From positions 1 to 56,489 of the forward strand of contig JAJFUB010000095.1 of the NCBI GenBank assembly GCA_021372615.1: 56,489 bases of DNA, written 5' to 3'. Below the pieces are notes generated by a model. That model was not told the DNA's origin and did no database searches. It saw only the letters and a list, made by a program, of their open reading frames with translations. The position numbers were made by a program, and so were the translations under genes. This document shows positions 8,850-54,717 of this stretch, piece after piece (position 1 is the stretch's first letter; each line of letters starts with the position of its first letter). This stretch comes from a bacterium. Lineage in GTDB: Bacteria > Armatimonadota > Zipacnadia > Zipacnadales > UBA11051.

Positions 8850-8875
8850 GGCACTGACTCCTTGGGCGGTGGTGG

Positions 8876-8889
8876 GCACGAATTCGTGC
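8876..8889. promoter_or_regulatory. Perfect 14-bp palindrome between divergent glycosidase genes
   Basis: GCACGAATTCGTGC is a perfect palindrome in the 143-base divergent intergenic region, 27 bases upstream of the minus-strand start at 8849 and about 100 bases from the start at 8993. It has the form of an operator for a dimeric repressor of the LacI/GntR kind, but no regulator gene is near. Function is inferred. Confidence 0.4.
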
Positions 8890-8992
8890 TATCAGGGCCG
8901 GGTACCTGCGCCGCTGGGCCCTTGCCCTCTCGGAGGTACGCCCCACAACGTCAGCGAAGCACCACTCCATCCCTCTCGGTGCGGAGGCCTCC

Positions 8993-11962: not shown

Positions 11963-11990
11963 CGTGGAGGCAGCTCAGGCGCTGTAGTCC

Positions 11991-12689
11991 TCAGATCACC
12001 GGCGCGCCGAAATGGTGCTTGACCCACCGGGCGATGGCGGCATTGGTCTGCTGCGGGCACTCGAGGTTGACGAAGTGCCCCGCCCCCTGCAGGATCACCA
12101 CCTCGCTGGGCCCGCCCAGTTGGTCGAGGCGCAGTTGCTGGCGTAGCACCTCGGCCTCCCCGGCGCGGTAGTGCGTGCGGCCGCCGTAGATCCCCAGCAC
12201 AGGGCACTTGATGGCCGGCAGCCAGGGCACGGCGTTGAAGGCGCGGACGCTCGGCCAGATGACGTCATAGTTCGCCTGCGGCATCCGCGCGATGATCTCC
12301 TCGCGCCGGGCCTCGACCCACTGCCGCACCTCCGGGTACGCCCCCTCGACCCACATCTCGGGCAGATAGCGCGCGTTGAGCGCCAGGTCGGGGAAGGAGT
12401 CCACGAGCACGATCCCGCGCACCAGCGTCGGGGCCTCGTGGGCGATCTGCAGGGCGATCATGCCCCCCAGGGAGTGGCCCATCAGCACCCGGGCCTGCCC
12501 CTGCATGCCCTCCGCCACCCACCCGGCCAGCCCCGATAGCGACCGCCCGACCTCCCGCGCCACTCCGCCATGGTACGGCAGGTCCGGCACCCACAGCAGC
12601 CACCGGAGTGACTCAAGGTGGGGGACCTGCGGGTGCCAGAAGCGGCTGTCGCAGCCGAAGCCGTGGATGAGCGTGATTGAGGCAGGCAT
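11991..12689 (-). CDS. Alpha/beta-fold hydrolase
   Basis: A 232-residue cytoplasmic hydrolase. LIHGFGCDSRFW (residues 7-18) is the oxyanion-hole region. GHSLGG at about 71-76 holds the nucleophile Ser, and GAGHFVNLE near the C-terminus holds the catalytic His. The acid is probably in the LGIYGGRTHYRAGEAE region, although the usual Asp after the strand is not obvious. The length fits a minimal alpha/beta hydrolase with a helical cap (residues 100-160). It is convergent with the GH5-like gene (28 bases between stops) and the substrate is unknown. No strong RBS is visible before the ATG at 12689. Confidence 0.88.
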   Translation of the reverse strand: MPASITLIHGFGCDSRFWHPQVPHLESLRWLLWVPDLPYHGGVAREVGRSLSGLAGWVAEGMQGQARVLMGHSLGGMIALQIAHEAPTLVRGIVLVDSFPDLALNARYLPEMWVEGAYPEVRQWVEARREEIIARMPQANYDVIWPSVRAFNAVPWLPAIKCPVLGIYGGRTHYRAGEAEVLRQQLRLDQLGGPSEVVILQGAGHFVNLECPQQTNAAIARWVKHHFGAPVI

Positions 12690-34059: not shown

Positions 34060-36971
34060 ACTATCTCCGACAGCGGGCAGCACTGCGTGGGTCTCGATAT
34101 GAAGCTCGGATAGGTACTATGCAGCTCCCACACATGGCACAGGGATAGAAGCAGCGCCACATCAATACGAGCGAGCGGATCGCTCAGCGCTGGTACTTGA
34201 CTTCCCTCCTTGGTGACGTGCTTGTGCAAGTCTAGGATTTGCCTGATCGGCTTCCGCAGGCGATCCATGACGATGCGGCCGTCCTTCAATGCTTCCTGCT
34301 GGTCACTGAATGCGGCTATGAAGGCGGCAGACGGGTCGCACTCGCACAATGACTGCAGGTGGTCGTCCGCGTTCAGGTCAATCAGTGACTGGAGATTCAG
34401 CCCTATGTTCCAGTACTCCACCAGAGCATACCGAAGGAAAGGAAGTACCAGATGCCTCAGCGTCTGATAGACAGCGGAATGGTAGTCCTCAAGGTGGCTC
34501 GCGAACTCGTCCAACCACGGTGCTGGAAAGCTGGAACTCTCGATGCCAAAGGGTGCACTGCCACGAGCATTCCCAAAGGCCCGCTGGATCGCCTTCTCAA
34601 CCAGGGAATGCTCATCGCTCTTGGACAGTAGTATCTCCTGCCAGCCCTTCTTCAGTGCTTCCTCCAACCACGGGTTGTCTGAATCGGTGAGGTCGGCGAT
34701 CAGGTAGATTGACGCAATACGCTGGATGGCATCAACTGGATGGACGGCCAAGTGTGGACTCGTCAGCCAGTTCTGCCACAGAGAGCGCACACAGAAGTCA
34801 GTCTGCCTATCGAACAGCTCGTACTCGACCCAATGAGCGAACGTCTCCTCCAGCGCCCGGACTATTGGCGCGTGGGCTGCACCGAACCCTCGCATCCACT
34901 TGTTAGGAGCACCGCGGCATACGTTCAGCAGTCTGTCTTCCCCCCCCGGCCTTGCGACGAGCAATTCCCAGATCAGGTGCCCAGCTTCATGGAAAATCCG
35001 CGGCAGCGTCACAGCGAGGTTCTGCGCGAAGACATCCGTGAAATGAACAATCCCGCCTGGGGATATGTAGACCCCCTGGAGTACTGTGAGGCACAGACAA
35101 CCGGTCCAACGACGTCCGGTGCGATCACGATCATCGGTCAGTGCCTTGATCTCGTCTTGGCGCACCGGTATTTGGCCGGCCCTGTGCCTGCCATACCATG
35201 AGGTCTCGGCGACGCTCCCTGGCGGTTCCGTTCCTGCCCGCGCGATGGCATAGTTCACAATGTAGCCGACTACCCACTCGACCGCCTTCGCCAAGGCTTG
35301 TAGACCGGCTCCCTCCGAGTGAAACGGCGAACCAGGCGGCGCAGCTTCGGCCCAGAGAGTCTGCTGTCTTTCATATATCGCGAGCGTGAGGAACTTCACC
35401 AACTGAAGTGCAGCCCAGGGCCTGTGAATCTCGTCGAGCTCATACTTCACATTGCTATCGAGATCGCACAATGCCGAGATGAGATCATCCGCGTCCGAGG
35501 CGATCTCCGGGTTCATCAGGAGTGCGCGTGCAGCTATCCGCAGATCATTCAGGGCTCCTGCAATGGCTGCCACAGGCACGGAATCGCTGTCTTGGCGAGT
35601 CTGGACATTATCAAAGGCTTTGTCCACCACACTCAGCACTTGCTCGGCGCAGAACGGTGCCAGGGGCAGGAGCCTGGTGCCGGTCCTGGTGTCCGCGGCT
35701 CCGAGAGTACGAAGAGGGATCGAAACCGTCGTTAGCCGGACCCCGGATTTCTGTCTCCATGCGAGCATACGTTGAATGAACTCGCGGCAGTGCTGGAAAC
35801 TGGAGAAGCAGAGAATACCGGTATGGACATCGAAGGGCCCGTAGGACAGTTGCACCAGAGGTGTGTGATCCGCAGTCGCACCGTTCGGGACCGCGCCATG
35901 ATCTGCTGTCGCGCCACGCATTTCCGCGAGAGCCTGCGATGATAGTATGGTACCGAGCGGAACACCGTCGTAACCAAGCTGGGGAGACGACCGCAGTACC
36001 CCTTCGATCAGCTCGGCAGCGCGCCGCTCATCTGGCCCTTGGACTCCGGCTCCTATCGTAACCATGAACGGCCTGGGTGCTGTACCCGAAACATTCAGGA
36101 CAGTCGGCCGGTCGGCGCGCCAGCACACAGTGGAGTTGGTCCGGGAAATCAGCGGCTGGCGCATGAGAAAGCTCTCATGGTCAGACACCGCTTGGTGTGA
36201 TAGCGGTGCTTCGGTCGTCGGCGCACACTGCTCGTCGGGCTCATTCTGCGACGGCTGTTCACCCGGAACCGCCTGATGATCTGGTCGCTTGTCCTTGTCC
36301 GAGGACGCGCCGTCATATGTGGCTAACCGGTAGAGCGCGTCATGGTATCTCCAGAGCCGATACCGCGAGAACGCGTCCAAATCCCCCGTGTTGACGGGGA
36401 CACCGTCTTTGTTGACTGCACCATGTGCTCGAGCAATGTGGCCGATCAGACGCTTGGGAACCGGCTGAGCAGCGATGACATTCACGCATTCGAGAGACGC
36501 CATTAGCTCGGTGTCGGAAAGAAACGCGATGATCTGGTTACTTCCCTGCGTTAGGGCGCATACCGGGCGGTCCCCCGACTGCGACTCGTCTACGACCCGA
36601 TGGACTGTCTCCATCGCAGCCTCTGCTGCGTATAGCCCGCCCAACGTAGCTACAAGGGGGTTGACTTTGATCGCACACATCACGAAATGCGACCACGATG
36701 CCATTCGCCGAAACTGGTCCTCTCCTGTCTCAGCGTCGCTCGCAAGGAACCAGCAGGGAAACCCGAGACGGTGCTGCGTAGTCTGAACATGGCGAGTATT
36801 GAGACGTGAGTGGGGGCGTCCTTGGGTGCACAGCCAGAAATACGCCTGATCCCAGCCGGTGAGGCACTCTGTCCGAAATGCTGTGTCGTCGTCGAGAGAG
36901 GTGTCGTCCAAGAGGGCGTCGGCCGCTTGGCCAACCAAGTCGATGAACAGGCTCTCTGCAGCCAGAATCAT
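34056..36971 (-). CDS. Large HEXXH zincin-like protein of unknown function
   Basis: A 971-residue cytoplasmic protein. Its clear motif is HEAGH at 661-665 within LPRIFHEAGHLIWELL, with a likely third zinc ligand Glu708 or Glu709 in ALEETFAHWVEYELF, as in gluzincin-type metallopeptidases. The N-terminal 450 residues are of unknown fold, with an acidic, disordered-looking spacer at about 220-265 (SSDKDKRPDHQAVPGEQPSQ). The C-terminal 250 are mainly helical. There is no signal peptide or membrane segment, so it acts inside the cell. Its stop overlaps the start of the HD-domain gene (ATGA), which implies coupled translation and a shared function, for example a protease that activates or senses for the HD effector. 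I know no described defence system with this pair; the role is inferred from the island context. Confidence 0.75.
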   Translation of the reverse strand: MILAAESLFIDLVGQAADALLDDTSLDDDTAFRTECLTGWDQAYFWLCTQGRPHSRLNTRHVQTTQHRLGFPCWFLASDAETGEDQFRRMASWSHFVMCAIKVNPLVATLGGLYAAEAAMETVHRVVDESQSGDRPVCALTQGSNQIIAFLSDTELMASLECVNVIAAQPVPKRLIGHIARAHGAVNKDGVPVNTGDLDAFSRYRLWRYHDALYRLATYDGASSDKDKRPDHQAVPGEQPSQNEPDEQCAPTTEAPLSHQAVSDHESFLMRQPLISRTNSTVCWRADRPTVLNVSGTAPRPFMVTIGAGVQGPDERRAAELIEGVLRSSPQLGYDGVPLGTILSSQALAEMRGATADHGAVPNGATADHTPLVQLSYGPFDVHTGILCFSSFQHCREFIQRMLAWRQKSGVRLTTVSIPLRTLGAADTRTGTRLLPLAPFCAEQVLSVVDKAFDNVQTRQDSDSVPVAAIAGALNDLRIAARALLMNPEIASDADDLISALCDLDSNVKYELDEIHRPWAALQLVKFLTLAIYERQQTLWAEAAPPGSPFHSEGAGLQALAKAVEWVVGYIVNYAIARAGTEPPGSVAETSWYGRHRAGQIPVRQDEIKALTDDRDRTGRRWTGCLCLTVLQGVYISPGGIVHFTDVFAQNLAVTLPRIFHEAGHLIWELLVARPGGEDRLLNVCRGAPNKWMRGFGAAHAPIVRALEETFAHWVEYELFDRQTDFCVRSLWQNWLTSPHLAVHPVDAIQRIASIYLIADLTDSDNPWLEEALKKGWQEILLSKSDEHSLVEKAIQRAFGNARGSAPFGIESSSFPAPWLDEFASHLEDYHSAVYQTLRHLVLPFLRYALVEYWNIGLNLQSLIDLNADDHLQSLCECDPSAAFIAAFSDQQEALKDGRIVMDRLRKPIRQILDLHKHVTKEGSQVPALSDPLARIDVALLLSLCHVWELHSTYPSFISRPTQCCPLSEIV

Positions 36972-38074: not shown

Positions 38075-40114
38075 TCACGCCTCCCCCGTCACGAGCACCT
38101 CTTCGCCCAGCATGTCCATGATCTTCACGGCTACCGTCGTCTTTCTCCCCTTCGACGCGGGCAGGCGGTACTCGCCCTCAACGAAGTCGGCCTTCTTCTC
38201 CGGCACATCTGAGAGAGCGATGTTGAAGACCTCGCCGTCATAGGCCGGGTCAATCATCACGCAGTCAACCATCTGCCGCCAGTCGTCAATGTGCGCCTGC
38301 ACGATCCCCGCCTGCTGCTGGAGCCGCTTGATGATCGTCGGCGAGCAGAAGTCCTTGATCGTGACGGCGATCTCCTCTCTCTCGCGCTTGATCGTCACGC
38401 GGGCCGTGGCCGGCTCGTGCTGCAGGAAGCCGCCGTAGCGGGCGTCGGTCCGCAGCTCGATGACCTCGATCCGGTTGGCCGCGTTCTTCCCCCGGCGCAG
38501 GCGGTTGTGGTCCTCCAGCCAGGCGTCGGTGGTTAGCTCTTTGCCCAGGCAGACCGCGACCGCGTTCTCCGTGGTCTTGCGCGCCTCCAACTCCTGCTTG
38601 ATCTCCTCCAGGTCAGTCAAGCAGAGAGGATGGTTGAACGGTATCACGCGCACGAGGTCCTGCCCCCGCGTTCCGTCGAAGAAGGTGTCGGTGCGGTTGC
38701 GCTGGACGCCGATGACCTGGCAAGCAAGCTCGACGGCCTCATTGTGCTGCACCTGCAGGTCGTAGTCATTCACGCGCCAGACGGTGAAGGAGAACTGCGC
38801 CGGTGGCGGTGCCGTGTCCGTGGCAGGGAGGCGAGGGTTGGCTATCTCCGCCTGCCATTCGGCGATCTGGGCCTCAATGATGCCTTGCAGGCGCTTGCTC
38901 GTAGTCTGGATCGCGCCCTTGTTGATGTCACAGGCGATCCAGCGCCGGCCAAGCCTCTGAGCGACGGCGGCGGCCGTGCCGGAACCGATGAAGCAGTCGA
39001 GAACGATGTCGCCGGGGGCCGTTACCCATTGAACGAGACGGTTCGAGATGGCTTCGCTCTTCTCGGTGGGGTAGTCGGTCTCGGTGCCGCGATACGGCAG
39101 GTCGAGCCAGACGTTGCTTATGAGCTTGTACGTTCGGGGCGGGACGTAGTACTGGACCACGTTCTCGGGGGACAACCTGACGAAGTCGAGGTCGTTGCCG
39201 TTGGCCAGTTCCCGGAGGTAGTAGTCGTCGAGCGAGATGCTCCCCTCAGAATGCGCCTGGAACTCCTCATAGTTGCCGATTGCCTTCTTGGCTCGCTTGT
39301 CGGACCAGCGCCACTGGCCGTCCGCTGGCTTCTGACCGAACAACTCACCTCGCATGGTAGGCCGGTCTGTGCCACGCCAGAAGGTATCCCACTTACCCGG
39401 CTCATGGTCCTTGGAGACGGATTGCAGTTTGCGGTACTTTGTGCCCGTGCCCTTCGAGTAGAGGAAGATCGTGTTGCTTCCAAGGGTCAGGTTGGACATC
39501 TCCTCGAACTGCGACTGAACGTTCTTGACGCCGGCCCGCACGATGATCTCCGCGCGGAAGTTGCTGGCCCCGAACACCTCCTCCAGGAGCATCCGAAGGA
39601 GGTGGCTTCTCTTGGCGTCGCAGTGAAGGGCGATGCTGCCGTCCTCCGTCAGCAGTTCCCCGAGGAGTGATAGGCGCTCGTACATGAACTGCAGGTAGTT
39701 GTCATTGCCCCAGATGTCGGTGTACTGGATCTGCTCGCCTATTGTGTAGTTCTCACCGTCCATCTTGGCAGCACCCTTTGGCCCACGCAGGCTCACCTTG
39801 CGGACGTAGTCTGCCCCCGAATCGAAGGGCGGATCAATGTAGATCAGATTGACCTTGCCGCGAAAGCCGTTGGCAAGCAAGTGGGCCAGCACTTCCTTGT
39901 TGTCACCGTGGAATAGTAGGCCTCCCTTCGGACAGCCTGCGGGCCACTGCTTCCACGGTTCGCCATCTTGCACCGCCGCGTCGCCGGCAGGATCGAAGGT
40001 CTCGATGTGCTGAGCCGGGTAGGCAGCCACGGCGCGAAGTGGTCGCTTGCCGACCCACGTCAGCATCGGTCGGCCCTTCGGCGCGGCGATGGTCAGTGTC
40101 TTGTTATCACTCAT
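38075..40114 (-). CDS. Type III-like DNA adenine methyltransferase (Mod)
   Basis: A 679-residue beta-class N6-adenine methyltransferase. Motif IV is DPPF at residues 94-97 (LIYIDPPFDSGADYVRKVSL) and motif I is FIGSGT at about 375-380 (LDCFIGSGTAAAVAQRLGRR), in the IV-before-I order of that class. The middle (about 120-340) is probably the target-recognition region. The C-terminal 270 residues form an extra domain. It should methylate adenines in a specific site and provide the specificity of the complex. Its start overlaps the stop of the Res gene (ATGA at 40111-40114), so the pair is translated in coupled fashion in the order Res then Mod, the reverse of the classical type III order. Confidence 0.9.
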   Translation of the reverse strand: MSDNKTLTIAAPKGRPMLTWVGKRPLRAVAAYPAQHIETFDPAGDAAVQDGEPWKQWPAGCPKGGLLFHGDNKEVLAHLLANGFRGKVNLIYIDPPFDSGADYVRKVSLRGPKGAAKMDGENYTIGEQIQYTDIWGNDNYLQFMYERLSLLGELLTEDGSIALHCDAKRSHLLRMLLEEVFGASNFRAEIIVRAGVKNVQSQFEEMSNLTLGSNTIFLYSKGTGTKYRKLQSVSKDHEPGKWDTFWRGTDRPTMRGELFGQKPADGQWRWSDKRAKKAIGNYEEFQAHSEGSISLDDYYLRELANGNDLDFVRLSPENVVQYYVPPRTYKLISNVWLDLPYRGTETDYPTEKSEAISNRLVQWVTAPGDIVLDCFIGSGTAAAVAQRLGRRWIACDINKGAIQTTSKRLQGIIEAQIAEWQAEIANPRLPATDTAPPPAQFSFTVWRVNDYDLQVQHNEAVELACQVIGVQRNRTDTFFDGTRGQDLVRVIPFNHPLCLTDLEEIKQELEARKTTENAVAVCLGKELTTDAWLEDHNRLRRGKNAANRIEVIELRTDARYGGFLQHEPATARVTIKREREEIAVTIKDFCSPTIIKRLQQQAGIVQAHIDDWRQMVDCVMIDPAYDGEVFNIALSDVPEKKADFVEGEYRLPASKGRKTTVAVKIMDMLGEEVLVTGEA

Positions 40115-42762
40115 GTGTCACTCCCCGTCGTCTCCTCGAAGCGTCGGCGGACCTTGCCGGTCTGGTTGTATGTGATTGCCTCGGTTGATGTGAAGATCAT
40201 CTCGTAGGCTATGCGGCCGGGGTTGGTCCCTTCCCATTCCCGCGCGGCCTCCGCCTTCACGCCCTTCTCGCCATCGACAGGATGCAGCCTCTCACGTTCC
40301 CGCTTGATCTCCACAATGACCGTCCTGCCATCCTTGCGCCGGATCACGAAGTCTGGCGTATAGCTGTGCGTGCGGCCGTCAAGCCCTTGGTACGTGATAT
40401 AGAAGTCGGTCTTGGCGGGGTCCGTCAGCGCCCCAGTGAAGTAGACGTCCTCGACCTCTTCGAGGCGCTGCCCCAGGTAGCTCAGCATCTGATCGAGGAA
40501 GCTCTCCTCCGGCTCGGAGTCGAAGAAGTAGGGCGTGTAGTGGAAAGCCAGTTCGCCGGCGCGATCTCGCAGGTCTTCGTACTTCACAAGCAGGTGCTGG
40601 CTGCTCAGAGGATAGGTGATTTCGGTGGTGTACTGCAGGGACCCGTCATCGCCGGTTTCCTGCTCAAAGGCCCTGGTGTCCAACCTGACCAAGGCCAACG
40701 CCTTCTCGACAGTCTCCTCCCGCACTTCGTAGGCTCGAGTCTGTGCCTCAAGCTGCCTCGCAAGGAAGCTGAGGTGGCTCGTAGGCAGGCCATCCTGGCC
40801 GGGATAGGCGGCGCGAAGCGCGTCATACAGCGGCCAGAGTTCCCGGCGATAGAGACCCGCCAGGTCGACGGCGCTGGCGTAGAGGCTTGTCACCTCCACC
40901 GGCGTCTCAATCCTCACGCTGTCTCCAACCTGTTGCATGACGTGATTGCGCGCGTGTTCGTCCAGCGTGAAGGCGGCCCGTTCCAGGCTTTGCTCGGTCA
41001 CGGTCGGTGGCGTGAAGCTGATGTGTGTGTCCGCCGCAAGCGGCTTCGGCACCACAGTTCGCACGATCTGGCGCACCCTCAGAGGCGCGATGCTGGTCTT
41101 GCGGACCACGAGCCTCGCGGTGCCGGTAGCCTGTTGAGAGCGGTTAAGCAGGTCGTTGAGCCGCTCGCCGTAGTTCTCCTGGAGTTGGCGGTCAAGGATG
41201 TCCACGTTGTCAGATGACAGGTAGACGCGGGCCTTGCGGGTGTTACCAGGCACCTGCCGCAGACAGCGAGTCGCTGCCTGCAGGACGAAGTTGGTGCTGG
41301 TTAGCCTGCGGGCCAGGGCGCAGGCGAAGAGGCTGGGGCAATCCCAGCCCTCTGTTCCGATATTGACCAGCAGCATCACGCGGTGCGGTGCGCCGGGGTC
41401 TCTGCTCAGTCGCTCGAATGCATCCTTCTCATCGGGAGTGGACTCGTTGGTCCTCTTCAGGCAGAGCGTCGTCGGTTGCCCGGCCTGCAGAAGGGCCGCG
41501 TCCACTGCCGGGCGCAGTTCCTCGATGTCGTCGGTCTGCGGGAAGTAGATCGCCAACCGTGCCGGCGCGCCGTTCGGCAGGCAGTGATCGCGATACTCAG
41601 TGAAGAAGTCGCGGATCACCTCGCCGATGAAGTCCTGCGTATGGGCGTTGTCAAAGTCATAGGAGAAGATGCTGTCGGACAGTTCCTTGAGGTAACCGTC
41701 GCGGATGCCCTGCGAGAGGCCATACCAAACAATGACATCCTTGAGCATCTGGCGCTGAAAATACGGCGTCCCGGTTGTGTTCACGGCGCAGATGAGGTTC
41801 GTGTTCGCGGCCAGGTAGTCAACGGTCTGGCGGACCCGCTTGAGGCCAGTTGCGAGGGGCTGCCCATAGGTGTGGTGTGCCTCGTCGCTGAAGATTGCCA
41901 GGTGGGGAAGCGAGGCGATCTTGCGCAGGCGGCGGTTGGCAACCTCGGCCTTGGCCGCTTCCTCCTGTTCGGGCGAGACGAGGCGGATGATCCCGAGATC
42001 GGCCTTGCGCACGGTCTCCTTCTGGATGCGTATCTTCTCCGTGTTGGTCACGACTATGTTGAGCGTCGAGCCTTCCTGGACCGGAATGTCGGGGTCCCCG
42101 TCCTGCGTGAACGTGAGCTTCACATTCGGGGAGAAACGCTGGTACAGGTAGCCGGGCAGGACGCAGTCGTAGGGGATGTCGGCCAGCGGCCGCAACGCCT
42201 CGATGATCGTCTTCCCCGGCGCGAACACGAGGGCGTTCTGCACGAAGTCTCCGTCCGGGTACTCCAGCGCCATGCCAAACTCGGTTGCGATGATGGCGCC
42301 GATCAGGATGGTCTTGCCGGCTCCCATCGCCAGCGCGAGGATGTAGCTGGGGTAGTCCAGGGCGAGGGTCTCGCGGAGGGCCTCAAGCCGGTACTTGCGG
42401 GCGAACTCGTCGTCGGTACTGATCTTCTCCCAGAGTCCGTCAAGCCCGCCGTGCCCGAGGGCATACTTGAGGAGATCAGGATGGTCGGCCCCGAGGGCCG
42501 CGAGCAGTTCAGCGGCGTCGGCGTACAGGTCAGAGTACAGCTTGACGGTGTGCGGGGTACCCTTGACCAGGCGCAGATACCAGTAGGTCTCCAGCGACTG
42601 CAGTTGCGGCTTGCGCAGGAAGCGTAGGCCCGCGCCCTCGTCCGTCCGCTGAAAGCCGAGGATGTCAGCTATGGCCGGATGCGCGTCGCAGGGGTAGCCC
42701 TGCTCGCGCCAGGCCGCAACCCGGTCGGCTAGTAGCTCGTACAGGTGCTTCAGGTCAGGCAT
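40111..42762 (-). CDS. Type III-like restriction subunit (Res), DEAH helicase with PD-(D/E)XK nuclease
   Basis: An 883-residue SF2 translocase/nuclease. Walker A AMGAGKT is at 145-151, DEAH at 293-296 (LAIFSDEAHHTYGQP), and motif VI-like QAATRCLRQVPG follows in the second RecA domain. Near the C-terminus PDF (Asp804) and EIK (Glu818, Lys820) form a PD-(D/E)XK nuclease site. The start at 42762 (MPDLKHLYELL) was chosen over the first in-frame ATG at 42828 because the family sequence begins there and AAGGA lies upstream. It should cut unmethylated foreign DNA in complex with the Mod protein. The divergent gene pair at 43134 shares its upstream region. Confidence 0.9.
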   Translation of the reverse strand: MPDLKHLYELLADRVAAWREQGYPCDAHPAIADILGFQRTDEGAGLRFLRKPQLQSLETYWYLRLVKGTPHTVKLYSDLYADAAELLAALGADHPDLLKYALGHGGLDGLWEKISTDDEFARKYRLEALRETLALDYPSYILALAMGAGKTILIGAIIATEFGMALEYPDGDFVQNALVFAPGKTIIEALRPLADIPYDCVLPGYLYQRFSPNVKLTFTQDGDPDIPVQEGSTLNIVVTNTEKIRIQKETVRKADLGIIRLVSPEQEEAAKAEVANRRLRKIASLPHLAIFSDEAHHTYGQPLATGLKRVRQTVDYLAANTNLICAVNTTGTPYFQRQMLKDVIVWYGLSQGIRDGYLKELSDSIFSYDFDNAHTQDFIGEVIRDFFTEYRDHCLPNGAPARLAIYFPQTDDIEELRPAVDAALLQAGQPTTLCLKRTNESTPDEKDAFERLSRDPGAPHRVMLLVNIGTEGWDCPSLFACALARRLTSTNFVLQAATRCLRQVPGNTRKARVYLSSDNVDILDRQLQENYGERLNDLLNRSQQATGTARLVVRKTSIAPLRVRQIVRTVVPKPLAADTHISFTPPTVTEQSLERAAFTLDEHARNHVMQQVGDSVRIETPVEVTSLYASAVDLAGLYRRELWPLYDALRAAYPGQDGLPTSHLSFLARQLEAQTRAYEVREETVEKALALVRLDTRAFEQETGDDGSLQYTTEITYPLSSQHLLVKYEDLRDRAGELAFHYTPYFFDSEPEESFLDQMLSYLGQRLEEVEDVYFTGALTDPAKTDFYITYQGLDGRTHSYTPDFVIRRKDGRTVIVEIKRERERLHPVDGEKGVKAEAAREWEGTNPGRIAYEMIFTSTEAITYNQTGKVRRRFEETTGSDT

Positions 42763-43133
42763 TGCGAAGTCGTGTCCTTGAGCTTCCCGGTCGCGTAGAC
42801 CCCCCCGCCCCACCAGTACCCGCTCCATTCGCCTCGTGCAGCGGCGTTCCCTCCCCTCGCCGCACAGGACTGCATTCCTTTGGGCGCAGGGCGCGCTGTG
42901 GTGCGCCCTGGCGTATCACAATGGGCGATGTATAGGGAAGCCCTACTGCGGCCTTCGTCGCGCCACGGGCGTCTGTAGCGCGTTCTGCTTGGCGGAACTC
43001 CGTGCTGGCCTCGTGCCCCAGACCGCCCATAGTGCGCTCCGTTGGTAGGTGTTCCCGGCCTCCGTGCCGAATAGTGCCTTCACGTGCGAGCGGGAGTGGA
43101 CGCGAAGATGCTTTCCTCCAAGGGGGGAATCGC
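42763..43133. other. Divergent intergenic region between Res and the unknown gene pair
   Basis: This 371-base stretch must contain promoters in both directions. A stem of GGGCGCGC and GTGCGCCC is present near 42886-42906, but I find no convincing paired -35/-10 boxes and no gene. Confidence 0.45.
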
Positions 43134-44357
43134 ATGGCACGGCATTTCTCACTCAAGTCGTTTCTCCGCATGGCTCCAAAGGACTTGCTGGAGCGTTACC
43201 TGCACGGCAAGAGCGTGGCCGGGGACTTGAAGCTGCGCGAACTGAAGCCGAAGGACTGGGATCAGGTCTACTCGGCCATCGTGAACGCCGGAGAGCGCAA
43301 GGGTCGCGCCATTGACCGGGACTTCCGAGAGATACATGCGCTTGCCGACGCGGGCGGCACCAAAGTCCTGATTGATGAGGCGAGAAACCGGCACCATTCC
43401 CTGGACATCTCCGGCGACATCGAGCGGCTGAGCGATCCGTTGAGAAGTGCATTCTGGGTCTTCCTCGAACACCCGCGAGTCTTCCGCGTCGCGAAGGACC
43501 TGTACCACGCCGAAGCTCTGCGCTGGAGACCGTGGAAGGACCCGATTGATGGTGTTCCTGCAGTTGACGATGGGACGAAGAAGACGCTGGCGGAGGCCAT
43601 ATCGGGCTACTACCGTCTCAAGGAGGGGCGTGGACAGGGCTGTCACGTTGAGCACTGGGAGCGCGGGGAGAAGCTATACTGGCTGGTCTATCTCGCGGAC
43701 TATGCCACAAGTGTGCCTGCCTTCGATGAGCAGCACACGTTCGTGACTGATACGCAGCGGCTGGCCTTCGAGTTGGCCTTTGTGTACGACAAACAGAGGC
43801 GAATGCTCGATGCGTGTGTGCCGGGGGACAAGAGGACTCTCTGGGAGTTGCAGCGCATCTTCAGCAAGATCGTGCTCGCGGTGGATATTGGCGACACGCC
43901 ATCTTCAGAGACGAACTACCAACTCGATCCGTTGCTCTCTCGTGAGTTCGTGTTCGGGATCAAGCCGGAGGACAAGGTACTCGGCGTGCAGGTTAGGACT
44001 CTCCGACTAGGCATCATCGGAGGGGGTAGCCGGAAGGTCACTCTTGATGCGGGCTCGCCCGGCGTGCCTCACGCCATCTATGACTTGCTCGACGAGCTAT
44101 TCCGTAAGGAATCGATCCCCAAGGCGCTGCTAGAGGTGGCCTCGGCGCAGATACGGATTTCCTTTGTTCCGCCCGCAGGAAGCAGGTCGCGAACACGGAC
44201 ATTCAGTATCTCTCGCCAGACGTTGGCCCTGAAGCATGACCCACTCGATGAGAAGATAAGAGAGCTTGTCACTAGGTGGGGTCTCGATGTCTCAGGACAG
44301 CCTAAGCCTGATTCTCCACAATCTGGACGCGGCAAGCAGCGGACGCTTTCTGTCTGA
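43134..44357 (+). CDS. Uncharacterised protein X of a two-gene module
   Basis: A 407-residue protein without a recognisable catalytic motif. The N-terminus (SLKSFLRMAPKDLLERYLHG, then DRDFREIHALADAGGTKVLI) is helical and looks like a conserved family that I have no function for. The middle has an aromatic-rich stretch (LRWRPWKDPIDG, WERGEKLYWLVYLADY) and the end is basic (GSRSRTRTFSISRQ). The start at 43134 follows AAGGGGGGAATCGC. Gene Y begins inside its last 71 bases, so the two are expressed together. The divergent Res gene and the island setting suggest a defence accessory role. This is inference; no enzyme activity can be claimed. Confidence 0.8.
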   Translation: MARHFSLKSFLRMAPKDLLERYLHGKSVAGDLKLRELKPKDWDQVYSAIVNAGERKGRAIDRDFREIHALADAGGTKVLIDEARNRHHSLDISGDIERLSDPLRSAFWVFLEHPRVFRVAKDLYHAEALRWRPWKDPIDGVPAVDDGTKKTLAEAISGYYRLKEGRGQGCHVEHWERGEKLYWLVYLADYATSVPAFDEQHTFVTDTQRLAFELAFVYDKQRRMLDACVPGDKRTLWELQRIFSKIVLAVDIGDTPSSETNYQLDPLLSREFVFGIKPEDKVLGVQVRTLRLGIIGGGSRKVTLDAGSPGVPHAIYDLLDELFRKESIPKALLEVASAQIRISFVPPAGSRSRTRTFSISRQTLALKHDPLDEKIRELVTRWGLDVSGQPKPDSPQSGRGKQRTLSV

Positions 44358-45300
44358 TGAAGTGGCGGCATGGCCGGAAGCCCACCTTGATTCCCTGACT
44401 CAAGCCGGGATTCTCGTGCCAGGGCCAATGGCTGAGTCTGTCACGTGCGATGGCTGCGAGAAGGGCTGTCAGGAAGATGTCGAAGTCGTGGATCGGGCGA
44501 ACGGCTCGCCGGAAGCCTACGTCGTCTGCCACGAGCGAGGATGGGGCAGAATCAGGGCTGATCTGCGCAGGCTTGCGACGTGGGTTGTCAGCGGCCAGGG
44601 GCTTGCTCGATGGCTTGCCAGTCAGATTGACGCATCGCCCGGTCTTGAGGAGTGCATAGCTGGTCGGCTATGGTGGTTGGGCCGGTTGTCTTCTTGCGAG
44701 AACCGCGAGGCGTTTCTCGCCGTCGGGTCAGCACGTTCGGATGCTCAGTCTCTCTTCCCCAGTTGCCTTCGCCTTCAGGAGGCCCAGGCTCCGCTCGTCT
44801 TCGTTCCCGCCATTGCACCAAGCCCCTTCCCGTTCGGAAGGCAACCGCGAGTCATCCTCCTGCTGGGCGCAGTGCGTTCCGGCGATGGGAGGTTCATCCT
44901 TGATGACCTGCAGCTCACGGTGAGCCGGGCCGGGGCAGACAAGCCCGACGCCATCCTTCTGATTGACGGCCCGGACGTGACCTTCTATGGACAGCCGGTG
45001 AAACTTGAACCACGCGACCGAGAGCTGCTTCGCGTCCTTGCCCTGAACGTCGGACAGTGGCTCTCCGATCCATACCTTCGCAAGAAGGCGTGGGCGGCAT
45101 ACCAATGCAAAGATGAAGGTGCCGTGAAAGGCTCCATCTATCGCGCTCGTAACGCGCTAGAGAGGGCCGCCGAGTCTGCCACCATCATGCTTCCCATGCC
45201 GGCAAGGGCACTGTTCCGCAATGAGCCTAGGGCTCTGGGCCGCCCGCGCAAGTACATGCTCGCCCTCGATGAGTCGCAGGTCAGAGCCTCCAAGCTGTAA
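44287..45300 (+). CDS. Uncharacterised protein Y with Cys4 cluster and winged-helix domain
   Basis: A 337-residue protein. Residues 54-81 hold Cys54, Cys57, Cys61 and Cys81 (TCDGCEKGCQEDVEVV, then VVCHERGWG), a probable zinc or other metal site. The central part (about 100-225) is a mixed domain. Residues about 230-300 resemble an OmpR-type winged helix (FYGQPVKLEPRDRELLRVLA, GSIYRARNALERA), so DNA binding is likely. ATG at 44287 has AGGTGGGG upstream; the frame starts earlier only with TTG. It overlaps gene X by 71 bases. It may be the sensor or regulator for X. The family looks familiar as unannotated bacterial proteins, but I can give no name. Confidence 0.8.
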   Translation: MSQDSLSLILHNLDAASSGRFLSDEVAAWPEAHLDSLTQAGILVPGPMAESVTCDGCEKGCQEDVEVVDRANGSPEAYVVCHERGWGRIRADLRRLATWVVSGQGLARWLASQIDASPGLEECIAGRLWWLGRLSSCENREAFLAVGSARSDAQSLFPSCLRLQEAQAPLVFVPAIAPSPFPFGRQPRVILLLGAVRSGDGRFILDDLQLTVSRAGADKPDAILLIDGPDVTFYGQPVKLEPRDRELLRVLALNVGQWLSDPYLRKKAWAAYQCKDEGAVKGSIYRARNALERAAESATIMLPMPARALFRNEPRALGRPRKYMLALDESQVRASKL

Positions 45301-45371
45301 CCATCCCCACTGCTCTCGCCTCAGCACCAAACCAGCACCAGAGCAAGACCGCTTCGCCACCGGCGCTTGGC

Positions 45372-45399
45372 TATAGTCGTGTGTACCGACGCACACACG
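45372..45399 (+). promoter_or_regulatory. Promoter -10 and operator-like inverted repeat before the MerR-like gene
   Basis: TATAGT at 45372-45377 is a -10 candidate with only a weak -35. Immediately after it CGTGTGT (45378-45384) and ACACACG (45393-45399) form a perfect 7-bp inverted repeat across the likely start of transcription. This placement fits repression by the small regulator just downstream. Confidence 0.4.
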
Positions 45400-45422
45400 C
45401 ATGTAGCTGCCGGAGGTCGTGC

Positions 45423-45611
45423 ATGGAAACGCAACTCAAGGCCATCGGTGAGGTATGCCGGCTCCTCGGCGTCTGCCGCTCGACACTCTGGGACTGGGAG
45501 CGCAGAGGCATCGTGACCCCCTACCGCGACTACCGGGGGCATCGCTTCTATGACGACCAGCAGATTGACGCCTTGCGCCAGCGTCTACAGCCTCAGCGGG
45601 CGGAGGCCTGA
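45423..45611 (+). CDS. MerR/excisionase-like HTH protein
   Basis: A 62-residue DNA-binding protein: IGEVCRLLGVCRSTLWDWER (residues 7-26) is the helix-turn-helix and YRGHRFYDDQQIDALRQRL the wing and following helix of the MerR/AlpA fold. The size fits an AlpA/Xis-type protein, which may turn on excision or repress the element's early operon. CCGGAGG precedes the ATG at 45423. The next gene starts 2 bases after its stop codon. The fold is well supported, its exact role is inferred. Confidence 0.82.
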   Translation: METQLKAIGEVCRLLGVCRSTLWDWERRGIVTPYRDYRGHRFYDDQQIDALRQRLQPQRAEA

Positions 45612-45613
45612 CC

Positions 45614-45838
45614 GTGGCTCAGGGCCTCTCCCCCGAGGTGGTGGCCGATACCCGGCGCTTCTGGCAGGAGCGCACGGGCGAGGCCGTCAGCGAGGAGGAC
45701 GCCCGCGAGATCATCCGCAACCTCGCCGGCTTCTTTGATCTGCTGCATGAGTGGGACCAGGCCGCTCAAGGCAAGCCGGAGCCGGGCGAGTTGGGCATGG
45801 AGCGTGGGGAGCACATAGCGAAGGACACGGTGGCATGA
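45614..45838 (+). CDS. Small conserved element protein, 74 residues
   Basis: It begins with GTG, preceded by GGAGG. The acidic, helical sequence has DTRRFWQERTGEAVSEEDAR and EIIRNLAGFFDLLHEWDQAA, a pattern that I know from short unannotated proteins beside recombinases and replication genes in mobile elements. It has no enzymatic motif. It is tightly packed between the MerR-like gene and the primase gene; its stop overlaps the primase start as ATGA. Its function is unknown, possibly an accessory to replication control. Confidence 0.7.
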   Translation: MAQGLSPEVVADTRRFWQERTGEAVSEEDAREIIRNLAGFFDLLHEWDQAAQGKPEPGELGMERGEHIAKDTVA

Positions 45839-48156
45839 CGATGGCGGTGACTGCGGTTGGCTCAACCGATGCTCTAGCCGTCCTCCTGACGAGCATCCCC
45901 GAGGCCCTCAAGCAACGCCGGGCGTGGGTATGTTGGCGGTACGAGACGCGCGGCGGCAAACAGACAAAGGTGCCCTACATCGCTCAACCGGGGCCGCTGC
46001 GCAAGGCCAGGTCGAACACCCCCGACACCTGGCGGCCCTTCACGGAGGCCGTCCGGCAGGCCCCCCGCTTCGACGGTATCGGCGTTATGCTCAGCGATGA
46101 CCTGGCAGGTGCCGACCTCGATAACTCACTCGACGACGGCGGCAAGCTGAAGCCCTGGGCAGAAGAGATCGTCCGCGAACTCGACAGCTACACCGAGACC
46201 TCGCCCTCCGGCAAGGGCGTCAAGGTCTTCTTCTTCGGCGAAGTTCCTCCGGGCGGGAACCGGAAGAAGCTACTCGACGGGGAGCTTGAGTCGTACTCAA
46301 GAGGGCGGTTCTTCACCGTCACAGGCAACCACTTCGCCGGCACACCTCCGACCGTCGAGGAACGGCAGGCCCAACTCGAAGCCTTGCACCGGCGTGTGTT
46401 CGGCAGCAAGAGCACGCGCCAGGCGGCCGCCCCGGCGTCTGGCATTGCCGACGTGTCTGACGAGGAACTGCTTGCCAAGGCAAGACAAGCCCGGAATGGC
46501 GATGAGTTCGCCCGCCTGTGGGACGGCGGCTATCCCGATGACGACAGTGCGGGCGATCTCGCCCTGTGCTGTCACTTGGCCTTCTGGACCGGCGGCGATC
46601 CCTTGCGCATTGACCGGCTCGTCCGGCAGTCGGGACGCATGAGGGACAAGTGGGAGCGAGAGGACTACCGCGAACGGACCATTGCGAAGGCCCGTGAGAG
46701 CACAACCCAGTTCTACACGCCACGCGGAGGCATTTCAGGCGGGAGCCAACAGGCCCGAACGTCAACGGGGAGCGAACGCGATCTCCTGCGGTTCCATGCG
46801 ACCGACGCGGGCAACGGTGAACTCTTCGCCTCCCTGTTCGGGGATCGTCTGCGCTTCGACTGGAAACGCGAACGCTGGCTCAAGTGGGGAACGCACCTGT
46901 GGGAGGACGCGGCGGGTGATGAGCTGATCCGTTTCGCCAAGGAAGCCGCCCGTGCCCGATACGAAGCAGCGTCGGCGGCTGATAGCGATGCTCAACGCAA
47001 GTGGGCCTTTGGCAGCGAGTCGAAGAGCCGGATCGAGGCGGCCCTGCACCTGGCGCGATCCGAGCCGCCCATTGCAGACGCCGGCGAGGCGTGGGATCGT
47101 CAGCCGATGCTCCTGGGCTGTCCGAACGGTGTGATCGAACTCGGCACCGGCGCGTTCCGCCGTGGGAGCCGTGAGGACTACCTGACGCAGAGCGTCTCCG
47201 TGCCCTACACCGGGGGAGCCGAGTGCCCACGGTGGCGGCAGTTCGTCCGTGAAGTCTTCGACGACGATGGGGACCTCGTTCGGTTCGTCTGGCGAGCGGT
47301 CGGCTACTCGCTCACCGGCAGCACCAAGGAGCAGTGCTTCTTCCTGCTGCACGGCAAGGGCGCGAATGGCAAGAGCGTCTTCCTGAGCATCTTGCGCTAT
47401 GTCCTCGGCGACTACGCCCACAACGCCAGCTTCCAGTTGTTCGACTACGCCTCCCGCAATGACCACACGCAGAGCCTCGCGCTTCTGGAACTCAGACGCT
47501 TCGTGACAGCCAGCGAAGCCGCCGAGAACGCCAGGCTGAACGAGGACCGCCTCAAGGCCCTGGCAGGCAGCGATCCAATCACTGCCCGCCTCATGCGGGA
47601 GAACGACCGCACCTTCGAGAACATGGCGAAGGTGTGGCTCGGCGTGAACCACAGGCCGAGGGTACTGGACGAGACCGACGGCTTCTGGCGCAAGGCCCGG
47701 CTGATCCCCTTCAACAGGCAGTTCCTCGGTGACGACGCAGACCGCAATCTCAGCGACAAGCTCAAGGCGGAGGCAGCCGGCATATTGCGATGGGCGGTGC
47801 AAGGCGCAACGGAATGGGCCAGAGAGGGCCTGACCCCGCCGGCGACGGTGCTGGCCGCGAGCACGGCCTGGCGCGAAGAGGCCGATCCTCTCGGCGAGTT
47901 CCTGGCCTCGTGCTGCGCAGTGGAGCCGACATGCCAGGCCAGCGCGGGCGATCTCTACCGCGAATACAGCGAGTGGTGCGACGAACTCAGGGCGAACGAA
48001 CGGGAGCGCCTCAGTAGTACGGCATTCGGCAGACGCATGGCCGACAGGTTCTCGAAGCAGCGCGTAACCAAAGCGGGCAGGAAGATGACGGTGTATTCCG
48101 GCGTGGGCCTACAAGCGCCGCCGCAGACGGACACAGTTGACACGGTTGGTGGGTGA
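45835..48156 (+). CDS. Bifunctional primase-polymerase/SF3 helicase (phage/plasmid type)
   Basis: A 773-residue replication protein. Residues 25-200 resemble the NrS-1-type primase-polymerase domain: RRAWVCWRYETRGGKQTKVP, DLAGADLDNSLDDGG with the catalytic Asp pair near 94-96, ETSPSGKGVKVFFFGE, and ESYSRGRFFTVTGNHF. The C-terminal part is a P4/D5-type superfamily 3 helicase: Walker A GKGANGKS at 507-514, then RRFVTASEAAENARLNEDRL and KVWLGVNHRPRV. Such proteins start autonomous replication of satellites and plasmids after excision. The start at 45835 overlaps the preceding stop (ATGA). The last residues run into an inverted repeat that may be part of the origin. Confidence 0.9.
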   Translation: MTMAVTAVGSTDALAVLLTSIPEALKQRRAWVCWRYETRGGKQTKVPYIAQPGPLRKARSNTPDTWRPFTEAVRQAPRFDGIGVMLSDDLAGADLDNSLDDGGKLKPWAEEIVRELDSYTETSPSGKGVKVFFFGEVPPGGNRKKLLDGELESYSRGRFFTVTGNHFAGTPPTVEERQAQLEALHRRVFGSKSTRQAAAPASGIADVSDEELLAKARQARNGDEFARLWDGGYPDDDSAGDLALCCHLAFWTGGDPLRIDRLVRQSGRMRDKWEREDYRERTIAKARESTTQFYTPRGGISGGSQQARTSTGSERDLLRFHATDAGNGELFASLFGDRLRFDWKRERWLKWGTHLWEDAAGDELIRFAKEAARARYEAASAADSDAQRKWAFGSESKSRIEAALHLARSEPPIADAGEAWDRQPMLLGCPNGVIELGTGAFRRGSREDYLTQSVSVPYTGGAECPRWRQFVREVFDDDGDLVRFVWRAVGYSLTGSTKEQCFFLLHGKGANGKSVFLSILRYVLGDYAHNASFQLFDYASRNDHTQSLALLELRRFVTASEAAENARLNEDRLKALAGSDPITARLMRENDRTFENMAKVWLGVNHRPRVLDETDGFWRKARLIPFNRQFLGDDADRNLSDKLKAEAAGILRWAVQGATEWAREGLTPPATVLAASTAWREEADPLGEFLASCCAVEPTCQASAGDLYREYSEWCDELRANERERLSSTAFGRRMADRFSKQRVTKAGRKMTVYSGVGLQAPPQTDTVDTVGG

Positions 48157-50105: not shown

Positions 50106-50852
50106 ATGGCCCGGCCGCGAGGAACCAAAGTGAGCAAGGAACAGCAGGCACGGCTTGCTACTGGAGCGGGCAAGCTCATCGGATACATCCGCGTGAGCAC
50201 GGCCCAGCAGGGCGCGAACGGGCACTCCCTCGACGGCCAGCGGACCCGCCTGCACGAGACCGCCGCCCGCGAGGGCTTCGACCTCACTGACGTAGTGGCC
50301 GAGGTGGAGAGCGGCGCGAAGGAGCGCAATGGTCTGGCCGGGGTGCAGGCCCGCGTCCTGGCCGGCGAGGCGCAGGGGATCATCTTCCCCAAGGTGGATC
50401 GCCTCGGGCGCAGTATGGTTCACCTGCTGAAGGTCGTGGACTGGGCCGTCAAGAACCGCATAGACCTGCTGAGTGCCGACGAGGGCTGGCAGGTTCGCGA
50501 CGGCAAGAAGATTGACAAGATGCTCCCCTTCCGCCTGGCGATGGCGGAAGTCGAGCTTGAGCGCATCCGCGAGCGGACCCGCGACGGCCTGAAGGCAGCG
50601 AAGCAGAAGGGCGTCCGCTTGGGGCGACCGGCCGAGAACGTGGGCGACTTGGCGAAGCGAGCGACGGAACTGCGGCGGCAGGGCAATACCTGGCAGGAGA
50701 TCGCCGACCTCTTCAACGCCGAGGGCCTGCGGACGGCGCGTGGGGCGGAGTTCAAGACCACGACCATTGCCCGGATGATTGAGCGCACGGACCCGACCGC
50801 GAACCCCGAAGGGGGCTACCGGGGAAACGCACTCGCCGCCGCCGCGATGTGA
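50106..50852 (+). CDS. Small serine recombinase (resolvase/invertase family)
   Basis: A 248-residue recombinase. LIGYIRVSTAQQ contains the catalytic Ser31, FPKVDRLGRSMVHLL the conserved DRLGR, and EVELERIRERTRDGLKAAKQ the long E-helix. The C-terminal 60 residues are a Hin/resolvase-type DNA-binding helix-turn-helix (RRQGNTWQEIADLFNAEG). AGGAGG precedes the ATG. It is a second recombinase besides the large one at 54718 and could resolve dimers, invert a segment, or control copy number of the excised circle. The inverted repeat at 50034-50061 is a possible target. Confidence 0.92.
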   Translation: MARPRGTKVSKEQQARLATGAGKLIGYIRVSTAQQGANGHSLDGQRTRLHETAAREGFDLTDVVAEVESGAKERNGLAGVQARVLAGEAQGIIFPKVDRLGRSMVHLLKVVDWAVKNRIDLLSADEGWQVRDGKKIDKMLPFRLAMAEVELERIRERTRDGLKAAKQKGVRLGRPAENVGDLAKRATELRRQGNTWQEIADLFNAEGLRTARGAEFKTTTIARMIERTDPTANPEGGYRGNALAAAAM

Positions 50853-50926
50853 AGCGGCGGCCGCATGGCGAGGCCAACTGACGGCGTCGAGCCGTGACAG
50901 TCAGACTGGGTAGGAGGGGAATGCCG

Positions 50927-53900
50927 ATGACCACTGTCTTCCTGTCCTATGCCCGCGGTGACGATGAGCCGTTCGCGCGGCGGCTGCATGACGACCTGGA
51001 GGCGGCCGGCCTCGATGTCTGGTTCGACCGCCTCGACATGCCCAGCCGTGCCCTCACGTTCCTGCAGGAGATCCGCGACGCGATCTCGGCGCGGGACCGA
51101 CTCGTGCTCGTGTTCGGTCCCAGCGCCCTGACCTCCGAATACGTAGAAGCCGAGTGGCGGTGGGCCTTCGACTTCGGCAAACCAGTCAACCCCGTCCTGC
51201 GCCTGAGCGACTATGCCGATCTCCCCGACGAGTTGAGGCTCATCGACGCCCCCGACTTCCGCGATGACGCCCACTACCAGGAGCGCCTGGAGACGCTCGT
51301 GCGCCAGCTCTCCGAGCCCGTGCCGCCGATGGGCAAGCTGGTCGGTGTGCCGTCGCTGCCGCAGCACCTGCTGAAGCGGCCGGACCGGCTGCGGGCGCTC
51401 AAGGACGCTGTGCTGGCCGATGTGCGCCGCACCGCCGTCGTCACCGGCGAGCCGGCGCGGGTCGGCGTGCATGGCATGGGCGGCATCGGCAAGTCGGTGC
51501 TGGCGACGATGCTGGCGCGCGATACCGAGGTGCGCTGGGCTTTCCCCGATGGCGTCATCTGGGTGCCTATCGGCCAGTCGCCCAACGTGGCGGAGTTGCA
51601 GCGGCTCATCGCCAAGGCTCTGGGCGATCCGGGCATCTTCGACAACGCGGGTGAGGGCAAGGCGAAGCTGCAGAAGCTGCTGGCGGACCGGGCGGTGCTG
51701 CTGCTGCTCGACGATGTGTGGGATGCCAACCACCTCGACTTCTTCGACTGTCTGGGGCCGCGCTGCCGCATGGTCATCACCAGCCGGGATGCGAGCATCA
51801 TCACGGCGATCGGCGGCACGGAGCACCAGGTGCAACTCCTGACGGAGGCCGAGGCGCGGGACCTGTTGGCCGAATGGGCCGGGCTCGACGTCGCCGCGCT
51901 GCCGGAGCAGGCCGTGGCGGTCATGGCGCATTGCGGGCAGCTGCCGCTGGCCCTGTCGCTGTGCGGGGCCATGGTACGCGACGGTGCGAGCTGGGACGAC
52001 CTGCTGGAGGCGCTGGCTGAGGCCGACCTGGAGTACCTGGATCATCCCCACGGCAGCATCCTGCGCAGCATCAAGCTGAGTGTGGACCGGCTGCCCGAGG
52101 ACGAGGCGGAGCGGTTCGCGGAGTTGCGGGTCTTCCCGCCGGATGAGACCGTGCCGGAGGCGGCGGTGCTGATGCTGTGGGCGCACACGGGCGGGCTGTC
52201 GCAGCGCCATGCGCGGAAGCTGCTGACGACGCTGGAGCAGCGTGCGCTGGTGCGGCTGGATGGCGTGGCGCCGAATCGACGCGTGTCGCTGCACGACCTG
52301 GTGTACGACTACATGGCACAGATGGTGGCGGACGAGGCGGCGCTGCATGGGGACCTAGTAGAGGCATACCGGGCGAAGTGTCCGGAGGGGTGGGCCTCGG
52401 GGCCGAATGACGGGTACTTCTTCGAGCACCTGCGGGAGCACCTGAAGGCGGCGGGGCGGGCGGAGGAGATTCTGGCGCTGTGCCTGGACCTGTGGTGGCT
52501 GGAGGCAAAGACCGAGGCGGGGCTGGTGTTCGACCTGCCGCGCGATTTGGAGGCAGGGCAGGCGGCGCTGTCGCTGGATGATCCGGTGTGCAAGAACCTG
52601 CGGCTGCTGGAGCAGGCCCTCCGCAACGACCTGCACTTCGTCGCCCGGCACCCGACGACGTTGTTCCAGTGCCTGTGGAACAGTGCTTGGTGGTATGACT
52701 GCCCGGACGCGGCGCACTATTGCGCCCCCCCGTCGGCGGCTGGAGTATCGCCGCCCCCCCCCTGGGAACGCTCCGAGCCGAAGCTATGCACGCTGCTTGA
52801 GCGCTGGCGGGAGGAGAAGGAGCAGTCGCAGCCTGGTCTTGCCTGGCTGCGGTCGTTGCGTCCTCCACCGCAGGCCATAGGGGGGCCGCAGATCGCTTGT
52901 CTTGGCGGCTCTCCGCGCGCAATGCTCTCCGTGGCCGTCTCTCCGCGTGGGATGATTGCCGCCAGCTCCAGGGATGGTATGGTATGGCTGTGGGATTCCT
53001 CGGTGTTTGCTCAAGTGGCCGTTCACCATGTCCACGACGCCGCCGTTACCAGCGTCACCTTCTCACCCGATGGCAGGCGGTTCGCAACCGGTTCTGAAGA
53101 CGATGCAGTGCGGGTGTGGGATGCGGACAGTGGCGCGGAACTACTATGCCTCACTGGTCACCAGGACTGGGTACAGAGCGTCACGTTCTCACAGGACGGA
53201 AACTGGCTCGCGTCCGGTTCTTCGGACGGGACAGTGCGAGTCTGGGACTCCCAGACCGGTGCCGAAGTGGCCTGCCTGCGCGGGCACAGGCCCTGGGTCA
53301 ATCATGTTGTCTTCTCGCCGGACGGGATGCAGGTCGCCTCCGGATCAGACGACGGCACTGTCCGTGTCTGGGAAGCGTGCACCGGGGCAGAGATCGCCTG
53401 TCTACAGGGCCACGAAGGCGTTGTGTTTGATGTGGCCTTCTCTGAGGACAGTAGCCTCCTTGCATCCGGCTCCACCAACGGCGTGCGGATCTGGGATACG
53501 CTCTCTCTGACGCAGGCCGCGTGCCTGGAGACACATGACCGGGTGAGTGGTCTTGCGTTCTCACCCGACGGCGCACGGCTCGCGGGTGGTTCTTATGATG
53601 GGACCCTGCATCTGTGGGACACAGCGACATGGACTGAGATTGCCCGTCTACGCGGCCACGAGGAGCCTGTCACAAGCGCGGTATTCCTCGACAGCCGTCG
53701 TCTGGTGTCTGCATCGTGGGATCAGACTGTTCGCGTTTGGGATGTAGACGCCGCAGTCGAGACAACTCGAACAACGACCTCGCCATACCTCAAGCACATC
53801 TGTTTCTCGCCAGACGGAACGCTGCTTCTCGGTGTTGGAGAAGACGGTGGAGCGTGCGTGCTCAACTGGCAGGACGGCCGGCCCGTCGCGTGCGTCAAGT

Positions 53901-54703: not shown

Positions 54704-54717
54704 TAGAGGACGGCACG

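Follow-up and report, generated by a model that had tools for sequence, protein, structure and literature searches.

The two overlapping genes X and Y, found beside a type III restriction-modification (R-M) pair in a 56,489-nucleotide contig of an Armatimonadota bacterium (JAJFUB010000095.1; this whole stretch is called the window below), are best explained, with a probability of about two in three, as encoding a transcription regulator made of two proteins, which most probably activates the excision and replication genes of the element that carries them; we infer both the direction of the control and the role of X. The genes form a widespread, undescribed pair of phages and integrated elements: relatives occur in prophages, inoviruses and satellite-like elements, and among the papers listed by a literature search on phrog_37634 and on phage and prophage activators (PhoB-like, LexA/ImmA-linked and of the OmpR/PhoB winged-helix type) no description of the pair was found.

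The gene pair and its genetic setting

X (positions 43134–44357, 407 aa) and Y (44287–45300, 337 aa) lie on the forward strand and share 71 bases (44287–44357), confirming the gene positions and the overlap given in a preliminary description of this DNA. A single-protein search detected X in 12 of the 291 genomes of the same phylum and a profile of 33 X sequences in 18 of them; one further X came from a Verrucomicrobiia MAG, and scans of IMG/VR gave 8 and 37 X loci in overlapping sets. The 50 X sequences compared formed 37 clusters at 90% identity, and the neighbourhood counts given here refer to cluster representatives rather than to all members and to genes found with phmmer seeds. Searches by tblastn with X and Y of the window produced no match in phages or in 72,556 plasmid records, and the same was true for X of L081 and L047 against phages and X of L079 against plasmids.

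The sequences compared show X and Y to be linked. All intact relatives have Y behind X, and the two genes are adjacent in 36 of the 37 clusters; the exception, L069, has decayed remnants of both (9908–10965) in a large phage contig, and in G189 the contig end falls within Y. The genes overlap in 35 of the 36 clusters having both, by exactly 71 bases in eight, some start codons being chosen manually and several Y starts set by hand; with such counts the overlap is above chance. A single 744-aa ORF in G271 C281 (L115, 1662–3896) represents an X-Y fusion, matching the X profile with 84 bits and the N-terminal Y profile weakly with 13.5 bits. When the 291 genomes were searched with Y, its N-terminal part was matched only in those bearing X, and the remaining matches covered the winged helix alone. 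The distant X loci from the profile search each had, by eye, a Y-like gene next to X, with profile support for Y that was good in G266 and G189b, weak in G264, G251 and G243, and absent in G235 and G060.

In the window the pair sits between the type III R-M genes and the core of the element. Behind Y and on the same strand follow a small MerR/excisionase-like HTH protein (45423–45611; MerR_1, E 1.8e-11), a D5/NrS-1-like primase-helicase (45838–48156), a serine resolvase (50106–50852) and a large serine recombinase, the integrase (54685–56172). A large forward-strand protein between the resolvase and the recombinase (50894–54703), which by eye combines TIR-like, NB-ARC-like and WD40-repeat parts, is likely defence cargo. 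The divergent Res (40111–42828, reverse strand) is a ResIII helicase with a weak TnsA-like nuclease match near the C-terminus (residues 810–863, E 1.4e-4, below cut-off) and weak PADLOC type III matches only. The gap of 371 bases between X and Res, described previously, holds if Res starts at Met 42762 and shrinks to 305 bases if the first start codon, 42828, is used. Further upstream, a reverse-strand gene (34056–36971) encodes a 971-aa protein without a Pfam match, in which a zincin-like HEAGH motif was noted by eye.

The same polarity was found in the related elements. A primase or DEAD helicase was detected in 21 of the 37 clusters, and in all 21 it lies downstream of X-Y and shares its strand. 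In viral contigs X-Y has a serine integrase or repressor on one side and the early genes on the other, and the loci of G256, G248, G257, G258, G226 and G227 have a primase and mostly a recombinase too, with another R-M system or none. In 15 of the 37 clusters X-Y comes directly after a repressor of the same orientation: LexA/S24 at a distance of 4–27 bp in eight and XRE with ImmA in seven. An XRE/ImmA pair is divergent from X-Y in G271, and no repressor was found in the element of the window with the seeds used. The contigs L052 and L079 are inovirus-like and have a Zot gene; in L079 a putative replication initiator ORF of its own (by eye) follows X-Y. The accessory genes around the pair vary: CRISPR Cse1 and Cas3 are divergent from X-Y in L109 (G251; 8114–12681), in the position that R-M occupies in other loci, type I R-M takes a divergent position in G264, and a SIR2-like protein lies behind Y in L049 (4969–6969) and was not seen in its close relatives L047 and L048, marking an accessory-gene slot.

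Properties of the Y and X proteins

Comparison of the Y sequences showed one conserved N-terminal part joined to exchangeable C-terminal parts, predicted to be DNA readers. The first 200 residues formed one family with 48 of 48 Ys linked, while the C-terminal parts fell into 14 classes unlinked by BLAST; as Trans_reg_C recurs in several classes, there are fewer than 14 truly different readers. Y of the window (conserved part, residues 1–200) has a Trans_reg_C winged helix (PF00486) at residues 235–296 (44989–45174, forward strand; E 4e-6, above the curated cut-off), and its regulator matches in NCBIfam were all below cut-off and restricted to the winged-helix part. The N-terminal part contains a metal site of the type CxxCx3[CH]...C, formed by C54, C57, C61 and C81 (44446–44529, forward strand). 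The combination of a Cys4 cluster with a winged helix, recognised earlier from the sequence, was thus corroborated. Residues 3–218 also showed weak structural similarity to an ancillary nuclease of CRISPR systems (Z 5.2), which was set aside.

In the relatives, the metal ligands consist of a CxxC pair and a fourth ligand placed either three residues further or in a second knuckle. Three of the cysteines are left in Y of G256 and none in Y of G271, and the distant Ys of G251, G264 and G266 lost the Cys pair (by eye); because of these losses the metal is probably structural. The preliminary description had suggested that Y might be a metal-dependent sensor controlling X. The evidence supports its first half, in which Y is a regulator that binds DNA and has a metal site; sensing and control of X were not upheld, as the ligands are missing in the Ys of G271, G251, G264 and G266 and no site was found other than the one behind Y, which faces the early genes and is not in front of X.

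X had no match in Pfam, NCBIfam or PADLOC, in line with the earlier statement that it lacks a recognisable domain, though it matched an unnamed phage family without described function, phrog_37634, over most of its length (E 2e-11; residues 5–359 of X on 4–376 of 416). Among 12 X proteins run against Pfam, one had a single weak CARD match. An AlphaFold2 model built with 33 sequences (pLDDT 87.1, pTM 0.79) predicted an N-terminal helical domain (residues 7–127), a TBP-like sheet (130–255) and a second alpha/beta domain (282–382). The best structural matches of the modelled sheet domain included CENP-N/Chl4, CENP-L/Iml3 and RnlA, the folds of which we take to be TBP-like, together with RdgC and other unrelated chains. 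The model aligned with CENP-N with Z 7.5, below 8, over 169 residues at an rmsd of 6.1, and CENP-N was also the best Foldseek match (E 0.049). This likeness is a lead from a predicted model which may reflect merely a common arrangement, and no relation is claimed. Foldseek against viral models gave nothing at E<=0.001 (best 4.3e-3), and PDB sequence searches with X gave no significant match. A nuclease or HEPN activity was considered for X and rejected in the absence of a conserved RxxxxH-type motif in the alignment (by eye). Upstream of X, the repeat and promoter scan found weak inverted repeats only and no promoter.

The predicted operator behind Y

Immediately behind Y of the window, four tandem 11-bp units, CAGCACCAAAC, CAGCACCAGAG, CAAGACCGCTT and CGCCACCGGCG (45322–45365, forward strand), form the predicted Y operator. 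Their four-unit score was reached by 0 of 3000 shuffles, and the pattern CAGCACCN4CAGCACCN4CAAGACC occurred once in the window with 0 expected. Six bases (CTTGGC) past the repeats lies TATAGT (45372–45377, forward strand), the predicted -10 of an early operon promoter, followed by an SD-like sequence, GGAGG (45412), and the ATG of the first gene (45423); the repeats and the hexamer thus precede the excisionase/primase operon. The -10 region shares GGCGYTTGGCTATNNT with G264, where it occupies the same place. A sigma-70-type promoter scan of the region found none, and a -35 was not recognised. An imperfect inverted repeat (45370–45407, p 0.22) overlaps the predicted -10.

The geometry of the predicted site followed the reader type of Y across the sequences compared. 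Class A, with an HTH reader, has a single 31-bp inverted repeat, TTGCAGTTGC-N11-GCAACTGCAA, in a single copy per locus in 17 of 17 loci (245,613 bases), always 0–14 nt behind Y; the search, allowing up to 4 mismatches in 20, found no paired motif in 436,136 bases of loci of other classes. The 200 nt behind Y are alignable in this class, and in L077 (3771–3980) and the other class-A loci this stretch also includes a third half-site, CTGCAACT, what looks like a terminator and, ahead of the next gene, a conserved hairpin. Since the class-A site precedes the apparent terminator, its promoter is not obvious, and the p values of the class-A inverted repeats partly reflect terminators. An explanation of the repeat as an RNA hairpin alone was rejected on account of the constant 21-bp spacing and of the tandem-repeat sites in other classes; Rfam, run on nine class-A loci, returned one tRNA and nothing else. 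Class B has GTG(R)AA palindromes in some members, an inverted repeat being found at p<=0.013 in only 3 of 8 representatives, and class C (L060, L065, G227) has two imperfect palindromes 20–21 bp apart (3 of 3 at p 0.007).

Tandem 11-bp repeats were found behind the Trans_reg_C Ys of G000, G257, G256, L046 and G190 (5 of 5 at p<=0.04, with the signals of G257 and G256 marginal at 0.04–0.06) and also in L051 and G271, though the readers of these two have no Pfam DNA-binding match. Among periods from 8 to 16, period 11 had the lowest p in 7 of 7 regions; control windows gave 0 of 90 at p<=0.05 and, in a second set, 1 of 200 at p<=0.01. As the choice of period 11 followed the inspection of the first regions, only the later Trans_reg_C loci serve as tests: G251 (p=0.003) and G264 (p=0.007) at period 11 and G189b at period 10 (p=0.003). 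An 11-bp signal was also given by L070 of class A (p=0.007). Among the other loci added later, a clear 11-bp array was absent in G266 (reader without a Pfam match), G243 and G235, and doubtful in G060; behind the X-Y fusion the signal was not significant (p 0.49, or 0.16 with the stop codon included). The hexamer after the repeats, picked by eye, was TATNNT-like in G000, G256, G251 and G264, TAAACT in G257 and TACAAT in G190.

This arrangement resembles known OmpR/PhoB-type control. The repeats and -10 of the window are arranged similarly to those of the E. coli phoA promoter. The Pho box is described as two 11-bp direct repeats, each of 7 conserved and 4 further bp (PMC2648988), and Y of the window likewise has Trans_reg_C, with 11-bp direct repeats preceding the predicted -10. 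In contrast to OmpR/PhoB, Y is without a receiver domain (no Response_reg match), its N-terminal part, which has a metal site, forms a separate family, and Y would work together with X.

Proposed function and rival explanations

The same sites would also suit Y as a repressor of the early operon with X as its inducer or anti-repressor: the repeats come with promoter overlap, and element-specific readers are typical of repressors. Against this, a separate repressor is already beside the pair in 15 of the 37 clusters, and a PhoB-like arrangement of repeats ahead of a promoter in which no -35 was recognised suits activation better, making repression an unlikely reading, if the likeliest of the rivals. 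Slightly less likely is a prophage defence or superinfection-exclusion pair, for which the site would be merely an autoregulatory or terminator feature. The model for it is lambda RexAB, cotranscribed with the repressor, and X-Y is indeed directly downstream of LexA or XRE-ImmA repressors in those 15 clusters and is often adjoined by defence genes (type I/III R-M, Cse1/Cas3 in G251, SIR2 in L049). Yet X and Y matched none of the PADLOC 2.0.0 families and none of the plasmid records, the pair stands ahead of replication genes on one strand wherever these were detected (21/21), the predicted operator is behind Y and not before X, and no effector or nuclease motif was seen in X. As regards a type II toxin-antitoxin pair, in which one partner is toxic and the other neutralises it, X showed no toxin motif. 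The complete two-gene defence system proposed earlier therefore comes second best, with polarity, coupling to phage repressors and the reader-matched site favouring regulation.

An origin-binding initiator pair, with the repeats behind Y acting as iterons, is a still more doubtful explanation. It draws on the tandem repeats matched to the reader beside the gene and on the primase-helicase downstream, and it has a counterpart in the Rep-ori modules of satellites such as SaPI and PLE, in which an element-specific DNA-binding part is likewise found beside matching repeats; in PLE such repeats are described as iterons (PMC7145576). X and Y, however, are without a helicase or primase domain, the layout is promoter-like with a -10-like hexamer immediately past the repeats, and an AT-rich unwinding stretch is absent, the 160 nt behind Y having 39% AT against 34% for the window. 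Moreover, the pair is also present in the inovirus contigs L052 and L079, the latter with the putative initiator mentioned above. That X-Y assists or controls the adjoining type III R-M system, as the divergent Res in the window could suggest, is highly improbable and was refuted by the occurrence of X-Y without R-M: R-M genes were detected near X-Y in only 7 of the 37 clusters, in differing types and both orientations, and Res/Mod-like genes were found only in the window. The co-occurrence analysis proposed in the preliminary description thus found X-Y to be independent of restriction genes; it is neither limited to Res-Mod nor a housekeeping regulator.

For the favoured reading, a two-protein regulator of the early genes, the closest working parallel is SetR-SetCD of the SXT/R391 ICEs, described as a CI-related, SOS-sensitive repressor over a two-gene activator of xis and int (PMC4344509). 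SetCD resembles the proposed X-Y in being a two-gene activator that forms a heteromeric DNA-binding complex. The two are unrelated, with no Pfam match to FlhC/FlhD among 12 X and 12 Y proteins, and X-Y differs in having a swappable DNA reader and a site behind its own gene. A repressor next to the pair, as for SetCD, was found in 15 of the 37 clusters and, with the seeds used, not in the element of the window. Y oligomers would bind the predicted site side by side, on 11-bp direct repeats in the case of a PhoB-type reader, and X would bind the conserved part of Y, or adjacent DNA, and be needed for Y action. In repressor-linked elements the repressor would hold X-Y down until damage or infection frees it. 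X-Y would then bring RNA polymerase to the early promoter (TATAGT at 45372), thereby switching on the excisionase-primase operon, and the R-M genes flanking X would be cargo of the element.

A more speculative extension, which we consider improbable at present and place between the defence and origin readings, is that mobile elements as unrelated as tailed phages, inoviruses and satellites have borrowed X-Y as one shared induction switch, with X as a TBP-fold clamp, perhaps a distant CENP-N/CENP-L-fold relative, assembling with Y on DNA, and with the Y tail and operator exchanged together to give each element a private channel. If the regulator reading is right, a large undescribed family would govern the timing with which many prophages and defence-carrying satellites leave dormancy. 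With a reader and its predicted site side by side in each element, the family would offer a natural set of matched reader-operator pairs, and X-Y would also be a sequence marker for elements with restriction or CRISPR cargo.
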